In this document: in pieces, positions 25,469-29,464 of the stretch | Position numbering within the stretch: position 1 is the first letter of the stretch | How the letters are laid out: each line of letters begins with the position of its first letter | DNA from: Opitutaceae bacterium | Lineage (GTDB): Bacteria > Verrucomicrobiota > Verrucomicrobiia > Opitutales > Opitutaceae | Assembly (NCBI GenBank): GCA_027482185.1 | Contig: JAIXWF010000013.1 | Location: 496,001 to 560,000, forward strand | Length of the DNA stretch: 64,000 nucleotides | Direction of reading: 5' to 3' | Made by a program: the position numbers and the translations under genes | The notes under the pieces: generated by a model | Database searches by the model: none | What the model was told of the DNA's origin: nothing | The model's input: the letters and a program-made list of their open reading frames with translations, nothing else

Positions 25469-26443
25469 TCAGATTTCGCCGGCCTGGACGCGGAGGCAGG
25501 CGTGGGCGTGGCCGGGGGCGGCGGGGGCAAGGCCGACGTTGCCGGTGCGGCAACGGTCCACGGCAAATTCGCACCGCGCGGCGAAGGCGCAGCCCGGAAG
25601 CGGTTTCGAGAGATCGGGCGGCAGGCCGCGGATCGTGTACAGTTCCGAGCCCTTGGCCTGGAGCGCCGGGATCGAGCGTTGCAGCGCGCGGGTGTAGGGA
25701 TGCTTCGGCTGATGGAAGAGCGTGCGCGTGTCGGCGGTCTCGACGATCCGGCCGGCGTACATGACTTGGACGCGGTCGCAGAGCCCGGAAACGACGCCGA
25801 GATCGTGGGTGATGAAGATCACGGCCATGCCGATCTCCTGCTGCATCTTTTTGATGAGCTCGAGAATCTGGGCCTGGACGGTGACATCGAGGGCCGTGGT
25901 CGGCTCGTCGGCGATGAGCAATTCGGGCTTCGTGATCAACGCCATCGCGATCATGACGCGCTGGCGCATGCCGCCGGAGAATTCGTGCGGGTACAGATTG
26001 ATGCGGCGGGCGGCGTCGTTGATGCCGACGGCCTCGAGCATGGCGAGGCCGCGGCGGAGGGCGTCGGCCTTGGAGATCTTTTCGTGGATCAGCAGGGGCT
26101 CGATGAGCTGGTCGGAAATCCGCAGGTAGGGATTCAGCGACGTCATCGGATCCTGGAAGATCATTGCCACGCGTTTGCCGCGGATCGAACGCGCCTGGGC
26201 GGGTGTGCAATGCAGGAGGTCGACGCCGTCGAAGACCGCGGTGCCGCTTTCGATGCGGCCCGGGGGCTGCGGGATCAGCCCCATGATCGAGTAGCAGGTG
26301 ACCGACTTGCCGGAACCGGATTCGCCGACGATGCCGAGCGTCTCGCCGCGCTCCAGGTCGAAACTCACCCCGTCGACCGCGCGGTAGACGCCGTTGCGGG
26401 TATAAAAGTAGGTGCGGAGGTCGGAGACGGAAAGAAGGGGCAC
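25469..26443 (-). CDS. Oligopeptide/dipeptide ABC transporter ATP-binding protein, OppD type
   Basis: 324 residues from a GTG at 26443 (VPLLSVSDLRTYFYTRNGVYRAVDGVSF). Walker A is GESGSGKSV, the Q loop lies in MIFQDPMTSLNPYLRI, the signature is EFSGGMRQRVMIAMAL, Walker B is LLIADEPTTALD and the switch is FITHDLGVV. The C-terminal extension includes HPYTRALQRSIPAL and GCAFAARCEFAVDRC. It is immediately upstream of the OppF-like gene and 34 bp downstream of the acyltransferase/heptosyltransferase fusion, so all three may form one operon. Transport of peptides is a family-based inference; the permeases must be elsewhere. Confidence 0.94.
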   Translation of the reverse strand: MPLLSVSDLRTYFYTRNGVYRAVDGVSFDLERGETLGIVGESGSGKSVTCYSIMGLIPQPPGRIESGTAVFDGVDLLHCTPAQARSIRGKRVAMIFQDPMTSLNPYLRISDQLIEPLLIHEKISKADALRRGLAMLEAVGINDAARRINLYPHEFSGGMRQRVMIAMALITKPELLIADEPTTALDVTVQAQILELIKKMQQEIGMAVIFITHDLGVVSGLCDRVQVMYAGRIVETADTRTLFHQPKHPYTRALQRSIPALQAKGSELYTIRGLPPDLSKPLPGCAFAARCEFAVDRCRTGNVGLAPAAPGHAHACLRVQAGEI

Positions 26444-26477
26444 GTGGGGAGGTGGCGGTTGGCGGACGCGACGGCGG

Positions 26478-28397
26478 TTACGAAGTGGCGGACGTCCCGG
26501 CGCTTGGCAAGTACGGCAGCAAGTTCGCTGCCACCGCGGCCGGAGCCAGATCGGCGAGGTTGCCGCCGCCGGTGGGCGCGGACCTGGGCGCCTGCAAAAT
26601 CGTGCAGGGGGCGGCGAAGACGGGCCCGGTCCGCACGGGATTCGTCGGACCGAAGAGGGCGATGAGCGGCACGCCGAGGGCGTTGGCCAAGTGCATGCCG
26701 CCGGTGTCGTTGGTCACGAGCACGCGGCAGGCGCGGAGGCGGGCGCAATAGGTCGGGAGGTCGGTCTTGCCGGCGAGATTCTCGACCCGGTCCGCGGGGA
26801 AACCGGCGGCGACAGCGTCGGCGATCGGCCGATCGTTGGCGGTGCCGAAGATCTGGAAACGCAGTCCCGGGGTCGACTCGATCAGCGCGCGCCAATGCGC
26901 GACGGGCCAGCGTTTCTCCGGCGTGTTTTCCGAACCGGGAATCAGGCCGACGGGAGCGCCGGGGGCGGCCGCCGCCGGATCGGGCGCGGCGAGGGGCGTG
27001 CGATCGGGCGGAACGGCGAGGCCGAAGTGGCGGAGGAAATTTTCCCACAGTTCCAATTGGTGGTGGGTGCGCTCGTCGAAATCCGTCGGCACGGTGAACC
27101 GATGCGACAGGAGCGGCCGGGATTTGCCCGGGCGCACGAGGCCGAAGCGCTGGCGGCAGCCGGTGAGCCGCGCCTCGAGATCGCCGCGGAACGAATTCGT
27201 GAACAGCAACCACACGTCCGGGTATTCGTGGCGCAGCCTGCGGAAAAACGCGAAGTAGCCGGCGCCCTGCGGCGGCAGCGCGACGAGGCGGTCGGCGACG
27301 CCCCAGGATTCGAGGAGCGGAAGGAAGGCGGCTTTGCCGACGAGGACGATTTCGGCGTCGGGCCGGCCGGAGCGCAGGGCGCGCAGGAGCGGGAGGGCCA
27401 TGACGACGTCGCCGAGCCAATTCGGCAGGCGAACCCAAATGCGCGTGCGGCGGGGCGGCGCGGCGAGGCCGCGCGCGGCGAGTTCGGCTGCGAGCAGATC
27501 GCGTTTCGCCTCGAGGCGGAAGCGCTTGGCCGGCATGTCCTGATTGCGCCAGCGGTCGTGCGCCCAGAGCCAGGAGGCGCAGAGGTTGTCGTCGCCGGCG
27601 AGCAGCGACTCGAGCCAGCGGTTGAGGCCGAGGGTGACGGCGGCGCTGGTGTTGTCGTGGGGGATTTCCGCGACATCGACCTCGACGCGCCAGAACGCGC
27701 GGCGGCGGGGGAAGATACCGTACACGCGGGCGGAGAATTTCTCGGCCATCAAGCCGGGCAACTCGGTCGTCGCGCAGACGCGCCCGAACAACGTGGTGAG
27801 CGCGCCCTGCAGGCCTGCGTTCTGGTCGAAGAGCACGCCGACGAAGCCGCGGCGGCGGAGGATTTTAAGCGCCTCGGCGAAGCCCTCCTTGCGCGAGAGC
27901 AGTTTCATGCCGAAGCGTTCGCGGGCCTCGGTCACGAAGGCGTTGGCGGCCGGATTGTCGAGCGGCCGGAAGATGATGCCGAATTCGGGAAACGGTCCCG
28001 GCACGACGAGCGGCTGCGCCGTCTGCGCCTCCCAATAGGCAAGGTGCGGCGAACAAATCAGCGTCGCGGCCGGGTCGCGGTGGTGGCGCGTGTGCGCGGC
28101 GACGAGGGCGGGGGAGGCGGCGATGATCGTGCGCCAGCGCGCGGCGTCGAGATATGGGGTGGCGAGCGAAAGGAGTCCGGTCTCGATCAGCCGGCGGCAG
28201 CTCTCGCGGCCGGTGGCGCGGTGCCAGGCCGCGGGTCTTTCGGGAAAGGCATGGTGGAGGTTCGACAGCACGAGCCGCCGGCGTCGCGGGAGCGAGTAAA
28301 AGATAAAATCGCCGAGCCCGGCGGCGAGGACGCGCAGGAAAATCTCCGGGGTGTGCGCGGCAATCCAGCCGATGGTTTTGAGAACGAAAGTGAGCAC
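26478..28397 (-). CDS. Fusion: LpxL-type lipid A acyltransferase + GT9 heptosyltransferase
   Basis: 639 residues from a GTG at 28397 (VLTFVLKTIGWIAAHTPEIFLRVLA). Residues 1-300 are a lysophospholipid/lipid A acyltransferase: an N-terminal hydrophobic anchor, SNLHHAFPERP, and the catalytic HX4E motif in CSPHLAYWE (His118, Glu123), then FGIIFRPLDNPAANAF, GVLFDQNAG and ARVYGIFPRRRAFWRVEV. Residues 320-639 are a family 9 glycosyltransferase of the heptosyltransferase II type: IWVRLPNWLGDVVMALPLLRALR, LIPGSENTPEKRWP and VTNDTGGMHLANALGVPLIALFGPTNP. There is no stop between the halves. One protein would thus acylate lipid A and add a core heptose at the inner membrane. It diverges from another GT9 gene. 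Confidence 0.88.
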   Translation of the reverse strand: MLTFVLKTIGWIAAHTPEIFLRVLAAGLGDFIFYSLPRRRRLVLSNLHHAFPERPAAWHRATGRESCRRLIETGLLSLATPYLDAARWRTIIAASPALVAAHTRHHRDPAATLICSPHLAYWEAQTAQPLVVPGPFPEFGIIFRPLDNPAANAFVTEARERFGMKLLSRKEGFAEALKILRRRGFVGVLFDQNAGLQGALTTLFGRVCATTELPGLMAEKFSARVYGIFPRRRAFWRVEVDVAEIPHDNTSAAVTLGLNRWLESLLAGDDNLCASWLWAHDRWRNQDMPAKRFRLEAKRDLLAAELAARGLAAPPRRTRIWVRLPNWLGDVVMALPLLRALRSGRPDAEIVLVGKAAFLPLLESWGVADRLVALPPQGAGYFAFFRRLRHEYPDVWLLFTNSFRGDLEARLTGCRQRFGLVRPGKSRPLLSHRFTVPTDFDERTHHQLELWENFLRHFGLAVPPDRTPLAAPDPAAAAPGAPVGLIPGSENTPEKRWPVAHWRALIESTPGLRFQIFGTANDRPIADAVAAGFPADRVENLAGKTDLPTYCARLRACRVLVTNDTGGMHLANALGVPLIALFGPTNPVRTGPVFAAPCTILQAPRSAPTGGGNLADLAPAAVAANLLPYLPSAGTSATS

Positions 28398-28498
28398 GCG
28401 CGCGGGATTTGGCTTTGATTTCCGGAGGGAAAGACCTTGGAACGTAACGGACCGCGGGGGAAAGCAGATTCTCGGGAGCGCTTGGCCCCGCCGTCGCC

Positions 28499-29464
28499 AT
28501 GACCGAACTGCTCATCATCAAACCCTCGTCGCTCGGCGACATCGTGCACGCCCTGCAGGTCGCGACCTCGCTCAAGGCGCAGGTCCGGCACCTGCGCATC
28601 TCGTGGGTCGTGCGGGAGATTTTCGCGCCGATCGTGCGGGCCTGCGAGGCCGTGGACCAGGTGTACGTGTTCGAGCGCAACGCCGGCGCGAAGGGTTTCC
28701 TCAAGCTCACGAAGGAACTGCGCAAGCAGACCTTCGACTACGTCTTCGATATGCAGGGCCTGCTGCGCACGGGCCTGATGACGTCCCGCGTGCACGCGGC
28801 CAAGAAAGTCGGCCGCGCCGACGCCCGCGAGTTTTCCGGCATGTTCTACAACGAACGCGTCGAGCTGCCGGCCAACGGCAAAAACAGCCACGCGATCGAG
28901 ATTCTGCTCCAGTTCTGCCGCGTCCTCGGCGCGAAGCCGGAGCTCCAGGGCACGCTGCGTTTCCGCGAGGCCGACAGCCTCAACCTGCGTTTCGCCGACG
29001 CCCGCGGCGGCGGGAAGCCGATCGTGATGTTCGTCGACAGCCGCCGCGCCGAAAAGACCTGGGGCGGTTTCAAGCAGCTCACCGAATTGATTCTCCGCGA
29101 GGGCAAGCAGCGCAAGGTCGTCTGGGCCGGGAGCAACTACGTGCACGACCGCGGCATGTATCCGCCGGACCAATTCTTCAACGTCACGGGCAACACGAGC
29201 CTCGTCTCGCTGCCCGCCCTCGTGAAACGCGCCGATTGGGTCATCGCCAACGACAGCGGCCCCATGCACCTCGCGGCGGCGCTCGGCGTGCGCGTCGTCG
29301 GCATCTTCGGTCCGACGGATCCCCAGCTCTTCGGCCCGTATCCGCTCAACGCCCCCGAGCACTGCGTGATCCAGGCTCCCGTGGGCGACCTGAAACTGCT
29401 CTCGGCTAAGGACGTGTATTCGAAGTTCCAGCGCGCCCGCGCGCGTTTCGAGAAAGCCCGCTGA
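28499..29464 (+). CDS. GT9 glycosyltransferase (LPS heptosyltransferase I-like)
   Basis: 321 residues from the ATG at 28499 (MTELLIIKPSSLGDIVHALQVATSL), a classical heptosyltransferase N terminus with the PSSLGDI motif. YVFDMQGLLRTGLM, MFVDSRRAEKTWGG and ANDSGPMHLAAALGVRVVGIFGPTDP complete the GT-B pattern of family 9. Such enzymes transfer L-glycero-D-manno-heptose from the ADP-sugar to the LPS inner core on the cytoplasmic face of the inner membrane. It faces the acyltransferase/heptosyltransferase fusion across 101 bp, and serS follows 78 bp downstream. The sugar specificity is inferred. Confidence 0.9.
   Translation: MTELLIIKPSSLGDIVHALQVATSLKAQVRHLRISWVVREIFAPIVRACEAVDQVYVFERNAGAKGFLKLTKELRKQTFDYVFDMQGLLRTGLMTSRVHAAKKVGRADAREFSGMFYNERVELPANGKNSHAIEILLQFCRVLGAKPELQGTLRFREADSLNLRFADARGGGKPIVMFVDSRRAEKTWGGFKQLTELILREGKQRKVVWAGSNYVHDRGMYPPDQFFNVTGNTSLVSLPALVKRADWVIANDSGPMHLAAALGVRVVGIFGPTDPQLFGPYPLNAPEHCVIQAPVGDLKLLSAKDVYSKFQRARARFEKAR

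Follow-up and report, generated by a model that had tools for sequence, protein, structure and literature searches.

A verrucomicrobial protein joining an LpxL-like acyltransferase to a WaaF-like GT9 half

Lipid A acylation and the addition of inner-core sugars are regarded as separate steps carried out by separate enzymes. In E. coli, WaaA adds Kdo, LpxL requires this Kdo, and WaaC and then WaaF add the heptoses, every step taking place on the cytoplasmic side of the inner membrane. One locus in the window (the whole stretch of 64,000 nucleotides of Opitutaceae DNA that was analysed) raises the question of whether two of these steps can reside in a single protein. Our main reading, to which we give a probability of about 0.6, is that the locus encodes a bifunctional LPS enzyme that carries out the secondary acylation of Kdo-lipid A and adds the second inner-core heptose. 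The two enzyme families are known, and they occur here in an arrangement for which our literature search returned no description: nothing on the fusion was found in titles and abstract openings of the open-access papers listed. The domain pair may already stand, uncommented, in public annotation databases. The consulted part of PMC8151780, on E. coli LPS, also yielded nothing on a physical coupling of acylation and heptose addition. The features of the locus are listed below.

26478..28397, minus strand: fusion gene, LpxL-like acyltransferase plus WaaF-like GT9, 639 aa (from the ORF, Pfam, AlphaFold2 and fold match)
27546..28388, minus strand: acyltransferase half, residues 4-284, with HX4E = His118/Glu123 and Arg159 (Pfam PF03279, LpxM fold match, motif alignment)
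27450..27545, minus strand: short joint between the halves, residues 285-316 (block mean of pLDDT down to 67 at residues 281-290)
26481..27449, minus strand: GT9 half, residues 317-639 (Pfam PF01075, WaaF 1psw fold match, residue alignment)
28398..28498, no strand: intergenic region common to both divergent genes, 101 nt (by position)
28499..29464, plus strand: divergent WaaC-like heptosyltransferase I gene (P0002), 321 aa (Pfam 110.3 bits, TIGR02193, identity to E. coli WaaC)

The gene at 26478-28397(-) ran uninterrupted from a GTG start to the stop over 639 codons, and its product consisted of an LpxL-family acyltransferase (residues 4-284) followed by a complete GT9 domain closest to WaaF. 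A sequence-only reading of this DNA had described an acyltransferase and a GT9 enzyme in one frame without a stop, and this was borne out, with both Pfam scores above their cut-offs. The G+C at the three codon positions was 0.70/0.53/0.87 and was alike in both halves. AlphaFold2, run as five models on a 28-row alignment, returned a mean pLDDT of 91.7 and a pTM of 0.89. We found no point in favour of a sequencing or assembly error, or a frameshift, that had fused two genes. The same joint was present in 27 other genomes of one alignment at 43-77% identity and also in many loci beyond that alignment, and because of this conservation an artefact was rejected, its likelihood being practically negligible.

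The same domain order, sought in other genomes, recurred in many of them. The family scan of 61 genomes, including the source, gave some match in 56 and a single near-full-length match in 30; in G045 the match was split into three pieces inside one 728-aa frame. Among 359 relatives in a scan of named species, the best 80 were records of Opitutaceae, Opitutia, Opitutales or Verrucomicrobia with no frame below 600 aa, and in 79 of these 80 a single alignment spanned 590 residues or more, the remaining one being cut by a contig end; these loci overlap those of the family scan, and some contigs are identical. When an alignment was used as the query on 387 genomes of the phylum, single-frame fusions were found in additional families, at the level of the order as well as the class. 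In the other classes of the phylum, the matches listed did not extend beyond the GT9 half and mostly lay in frames some 330-460 aa long. Relatives carrying two separate genes in place of a fusion were not the pattern seen. Tail-less forms (such as G058 and G152) do occur, as a minority of the 85 genomes with an assembled acyl half. Many Verrucomicrobia carry the acyltransferase and GT9 as one protein.

The acyltransferase half scored 77.6 bits against PF03279 (Lip_A_acyltrans), above the gathering cut-off of 22.3, and was about 26% identical to E. coli LpxL over 243 positions. Its His118/Glu123 pair, which had been named as the HX4E catalytic motif, did align with H132/E137 of LpxL and did not vary across the 28-row alignment; HX4E occurs once more at residue 48, but there it lies outside the catalytic site. 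The best fold match of the modelled half was LpxM of A. baumannii (5kn7; Z 25.4, 248 residues, rmsd 2.5). The half therefore has the fold, the HX4E motif and Arg159 (R169 in LpxL) in common with LpxL, LpxP and LpxM of PF03279, but the E. coli proteins (306 aa for LpxL/LpxP, 323 aa for LpxM) stand alone, whereas here the acyltransferase is joined to GT9. Its score against NCBIfam TIGR02207 (LpxL/LpxP, lipid_A_htrB) was 44.4 bits, short of the cut-off of 297.8. A similar acyltransferase fold was found in the phosphatidylinositol mannoside acyltransferase PatA (5f2t; Z 23.0), whose solved protein presumably has no GT9 partner and acts on another lipid.

The GT9 half scored 101.3 bits against PF01075 (Glyco_transf_9) over residues 382-593, above the cut-off of 22. 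Both Rossmann halves were present, with the fold aligned over residues 318-634, and D330, K495, D564, G566 and H569 aligned with D13, K192, D261, G263 and H266 of WaaC. We take D13 to be the catalytic Asp and the other four to be residues of the ADP-heptose site. With the Pfam score, both Rossmann halves and the catalytic residues in place, the earlier description of the C-terminal half as a complete GT9 enzyme held. The best E. coli match was WaaF (28.9% identity, E 8e-28), and the modelled half matched the WaaF structure 1psw with a Z of 22.1 over 303 residues at 28% identity, compared with a Z of 20.7 for WaaC; the full GT-B fold, Asp13 and the donor-site residues are common to it and WaaF. 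By contrast, WaaF of E. coli is a stand-alone protein of 348 aa, and the half lying here behind an acyltransferase reached 104.1 bits against the NCBIfam equivalog TIGR02195 (heptsyl_trn_II), below the cut-off of 134.6. Since the NCBIfam equivalog cut-offs were not reached, the substrate names rest on the nearest match.

In the GT9-domain tree, in which WaaF and WaaC themselves are long branches and from which the Akkermansia fused halves were left out, 22 intact fused halves fell inside a starred clade of 36 rows (96/94) together with E. coli WaaF, and WaaC and WaaQ fell outside. A narrower, unstarred WaaF branch excluded the fused halves from the window's order, which a long branch (1.09) separated from the other WaaF-like proteins. 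The fused halves were drawn as two groups, those of the window's order and those from elsewhere in the class, although the test did not reject a single origin (p-AU 0.165). Eleven separate GT9 genes from fusion or acyltransferase loci, the window's included, grouped with WaaC (starred, 99/89). The WaaF identity proposed at the outset was thus favoured by best match, fold and tree, and disfavoured by the score under the equivalog cut-off.

The second GT9 gene from which the fusion was said to diverge was found as described, at 28499-29464(+), 101 nt from the fusion. Its product (P0002) was 28.6% identical to E. coli WaaC and scored 143.3 bits against TIGR02193 (heptosyltransferase I), below the cut-off of 185.3. 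In 68 of the 80 loci (the best 80 of the 359 named-genome relatives), a divergent relative of P0002 lay on the upstream side of the fusion, at a distance of at most 341 nt in 66; as for the other 12, three have fewer than 150 bases of upstream sequence, one has 2281, and eight lack a relative within 4 kb. On the other side, an oligopeptide ABC-transporter gene starts 34 nt downstream of the fusion. The genome, which is 98% complete, contains a WaaA match (166 bits), an HldE-II-like gene (166 bits, below the cut-off of 181.5) and six GT9 matches, namely the fusion, its neighbour and four more. The only other PF03279 match, G000:C3:1107258 (L002), scored 22.7 bits, just over the cut-off of 22.3. 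It was rejected as a second LpxL, being a PlsC-type acyltransferase joined in one frame to an AMP-binding ligase domain, and the fusion is therefore the only LpxL-type gene found in the genome.

The GT9 half was not intact in every relative. In 86 acyl-half sequences assembled from 85 genomes, all five GT9 residues were kept in 56 rows; of the other 30, one (G028) was cut by a contig end. The acyl His/Glu pair was kept in 81 of the 86, the exceptions being D for E in G012a, G013 and G057, Q for H in G033, and A for E in G012b. In nine genomes (G002, G051, G013, G046, G011, G385, G404, G407 and G325), the fused GT9 ended at model position 141-156, which is after the first Rossmann half. These loci (L170-L175, L163, L164 and L219) have one GT9 boundary across five family codes. 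The missing second part was not found in other nearby frames at the eight of nine shortened loci where it was sought, and two had separate divergent GT9 genes. Furthermore, six Akkermansia-type genomes had a long but degenerate GT9 half, G032 and G033 had lost its catalytic Asp, and five rows kept 97-126 residues without a GT9 match. Seven sequences from six genomes (G058, G152, G012 twice, G020, G048 and G057) were tail-less acyltransferases. Because the GT9 half was lost in some genomes, these data suggest that the acyl half can do without it. The tail-less forms of G058 (L165) and G152 (L162) occur within fusion-bearing lineages, and two separate GT9 genes adjoin the one in G058. In G033 (L180) both halves appeared damaged, with the acyl His replaced by Gln and the GT9 Asp, Lys and Gly changed.

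In GT-B enzymes the first Rossmann half is the acceptor side, and loss beyond this half would be expected if acceptor docking outlasts donor use. The shortened GT9 of the nine loci may be such an acceptor-docking remnant, and what is left of the transferase half, there and in Akkermansia, probably persists in a docking or structural role for the acyltransferase. The dN/dS of the shortened tail of G002/G051 was 0.25, compared with 0.09 in the acyl half; in pairs with G046 both parts gave 0.45-0.56. A C-terminal extension in NCBIfam NF004569, presumably a chlamydial LpxL model of 454 positions, might be another fusion remnant. Homology to this extension was not seen in any of the 10 proteins scanned, in all of which the best stretch ended by model position 324. 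Chlamydial LPS is not known to contain heptose.

Among the 56 genomes whose GT9 half is intact, 55 had HldE-II, compared with 15 of the 25 others (Fisher p 1.5e-5, ignoring kinship); the one intact-half genome lacking it was G377. Presence was taken as at least 100 bits, a threshold set after the scores were seen, and G020 (95.1) was counted as absent. The table covers 81 of the 111 genomes searched, which were not a random draw. Left out were G028, which meets a contig end and gave no HldE-II match, and 29 genomes for which an acyl half was absent or not fetched (by our count, 7 with and 22 without HldE-II); one of the two G012 acyltransferases was dropped, and three Akkermansia genomes were outside the search. 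The side without an intact half includes the distant stand-alone acyltransferases of G012, G020, G048 and G057. A kinship-aware test of GT9 state against HldE-II had only two independent pairs on supported branches, and the acyl-half tree came from a quick search and has several long branches. Since related species are not independent and only two pairs were usable, the association of HldE-II with an intact GT9 half is suggestive only.

Akkermansia has a hypoacylated LOS whose action on the host is under study. The genus code g67 was identified as Akkermansia by a published 16S primer site, exact in 7 of 10 g67 genomes tested and in 0 of 6 others; G276 has no exact site. The three fused Akkermansia proteins that were scanned gave 113-119 bits with the acyltransferase model, while their GT9 scores were 22.9 and 23.4 bits in two (cut-off 22) and nothing in the third. 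The predicted model still had a heptosyltransferase fold in the GT9-like half (WaaF Z 19.2; pLDDT 85.8, pTM 0.84). The catalytic Asp was replaced by Glu and the donor-site Lys, Gly and His were gone, and judged from these residues the half looks catalytically dead. Six loci (L150, L169, L184, L220, L221 and L222) carry such a fused pseudo-GT9. The dN/dS values, which are simple pairwise Nei-Gojobori counts on stop-to-stop frames and not likelihood tests, were 0.116-0.207 for the dead half in all 10 pairs of five Akkermansia species and 0.077-0.156 for the acyl half, the dead half being less constrained than the adjoining acyl half in 9 of the 10. Intact GT9 halves gave 0.197-0.283 in five Opitutaceae and 0.076-0.120 in two other class-level groups, and comparisons of the dead half with the more distant G276 gave 0.26-0.40 or were saturated. 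The low values within the five species indicated that purifying selection acts on the dead half even though its catalytic residues are gone.

Each of the six Akkermansia genomes also carries a separate GT9 gene: five of them had exactly two GT9 matches, the fused and the separate one, and G276 had only the latter. All five residues were kept in the four separate genes checked; the separate gene adjoins hldD in one genome and hldE plus gmhB in another. The match of these proteins to heptosyltransferase I was weak (65-68 bits, cut-off 185), and they stood on a long branch in the tree. Retention of the heptose pathway despite a dead fused half would be expected if the separate enzyme uses it. The inner core of A. 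muciniphila LOS is given as three Kdo and one heptose in the text consulted of PMC13135019, and one oligosaccharide in the part seen of PMC12527988 has the same composition. One working heptosyltransferase agrees with one inner-core heptose as so described, which is a matter of consistency and no proof.

According to a passage of PMC12527988, the predominant lipid A of a European strain is hexa-acylated; this would need a second secondary acylation, for which our reading does not account. The paper also names JFJHEM_01585 of A. muciniphila as a potentially new LpxL-like acyltransferase, and gives its identity as 23.7% with LpxL and 21.9% with LpxP. In five Akkermansia genomes, the acyl halves were 23.4-24.5% identical to LpxL and 20.8-22.3% to LpxP, and from these matching identities JFJHEM_01585 is probably the Akkermansia fusion gene. 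The account of JFJHEM_01585 in the portion consulted makes no mention of a GT9-like half, which in our Akkermansia sequences lacks the catalytic residues. The candidate secondary acyltransferase of Akkermansia thus appears to bear a conserved, catalytically dead heptosyltransferase half, which should be reflected in any model of Akkermansia lipid A and core.

For the window's protein, the bifunctional reading would run as follows. The fusion would act on the inner membrane's cytoplasmic side. Its N-terminal half would be the cell's LpxL and would place a secondary acyl chain on Kdo-lipid IVA made by WaaA, the acceptor and chain position both being putative. The divergent WaaC-like enzyme would add the first heptose, and the C-terminal half, as WaaF, would follow with the second, presumably from ADP-heptose onto the product of the WaaC-like step. 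The joined halves would keep both enzymes on one acceptor pool, and acylation and heptose addition may in this manner be coupled by the fusion. Spread as it is through a class, the fusion makes such coupling accessible to study in a single protein and in split forms of it.

The halves may, however, both be active and yet independent, so that joining them would do no more than secure co-expression and membrane placement. The several lineages in which the GT9 half was lost, shortened or noncatalytic while the acyl half stayed are in line with this, because an acyl half that outlasts GT9 loss need not depend on GT9 catalysis for its own reaction. The short joint, the pTM of 0.89 for the two-domain model and a domain order kept across many families of the class argue the other way, although none of them proves coupling, and on balance we consider independence possible but doubtful. 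The GT9 half might also transfer another sugar or work at a core position other than heptose II. Its score under the TIGR02195 cut-off, the long branch (1.09) of its order, the lack of the Cys motif of the class-level fusions and the four further GT9 matches in the genome leave room for this; we nevertheless find it unlikely, with WaaF as the best E. coli match (28.9%, E 8e-28), all WaaC/WaaF donor-site residues kept and HldE-II nearly always present where the half is intact. Least plausible of these is an acyl half acting on another glycolipid, as the related PatA does on phosphatidylinositol mannosides. The PatA folds matched with Z values of 22.6-23.0, near the 25.4 of LpxM, but in this WaaA-bearing genome no LpxL-type protein other than the fusion was found, and the partner fused to the acyl half is an LPS-type enzyme. 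Moreover, in the available part of PMC12527988 no secondary acyltransferase candidate is named from the A. muciniphila genome apart from the probable counterpart of the fusion gene. We regard such a substrate as quite improbable.

Beyond the bifunctional enzyme itself, the GT9 half may have been taken over by lipid A acylation as a module that reads the core. An intact domain would then couple the two reactions on one acceptor, and a dead or halved domain would dock on or sense the Kdo/heptose core and gate acylation. We offer this tentatively and think it has rather less than an even chance. If it were true, Akkermansia would have a retained pseudo-glycosyltransferase tuning lipid A in a gut symbiont, and the lost catalysis would also explain the single inner-core heptose of its LOS. 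The series from intact through degenerate and truncated to lost GT9 halves provides natural material on how a fused enzyme turns into a noncatalytic partner. A Cys motif (CSPCF..EC) was seen in five of the six Akkermansia pseudo-GT9s; it is common to the class-level intact GT9 halves and absent from the window's protein.

On the opposite strand, an ORF of 668 aa at 26412-28418(+) covers the whole fusion gene. It was rejected as a real gene because its codon-position G+C is the mirror image of that of the fusion and because relatives carry many stops there. Across 29 fusion loci, the antisense frame of the relatives held up to 54 stops; the sense frame was without stops in 28 of the 29, and the one stop in the other (L025) was the terminal one. 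Many other long open antisense frames mirroring real genes were observed, which is attributable to the high G+C.
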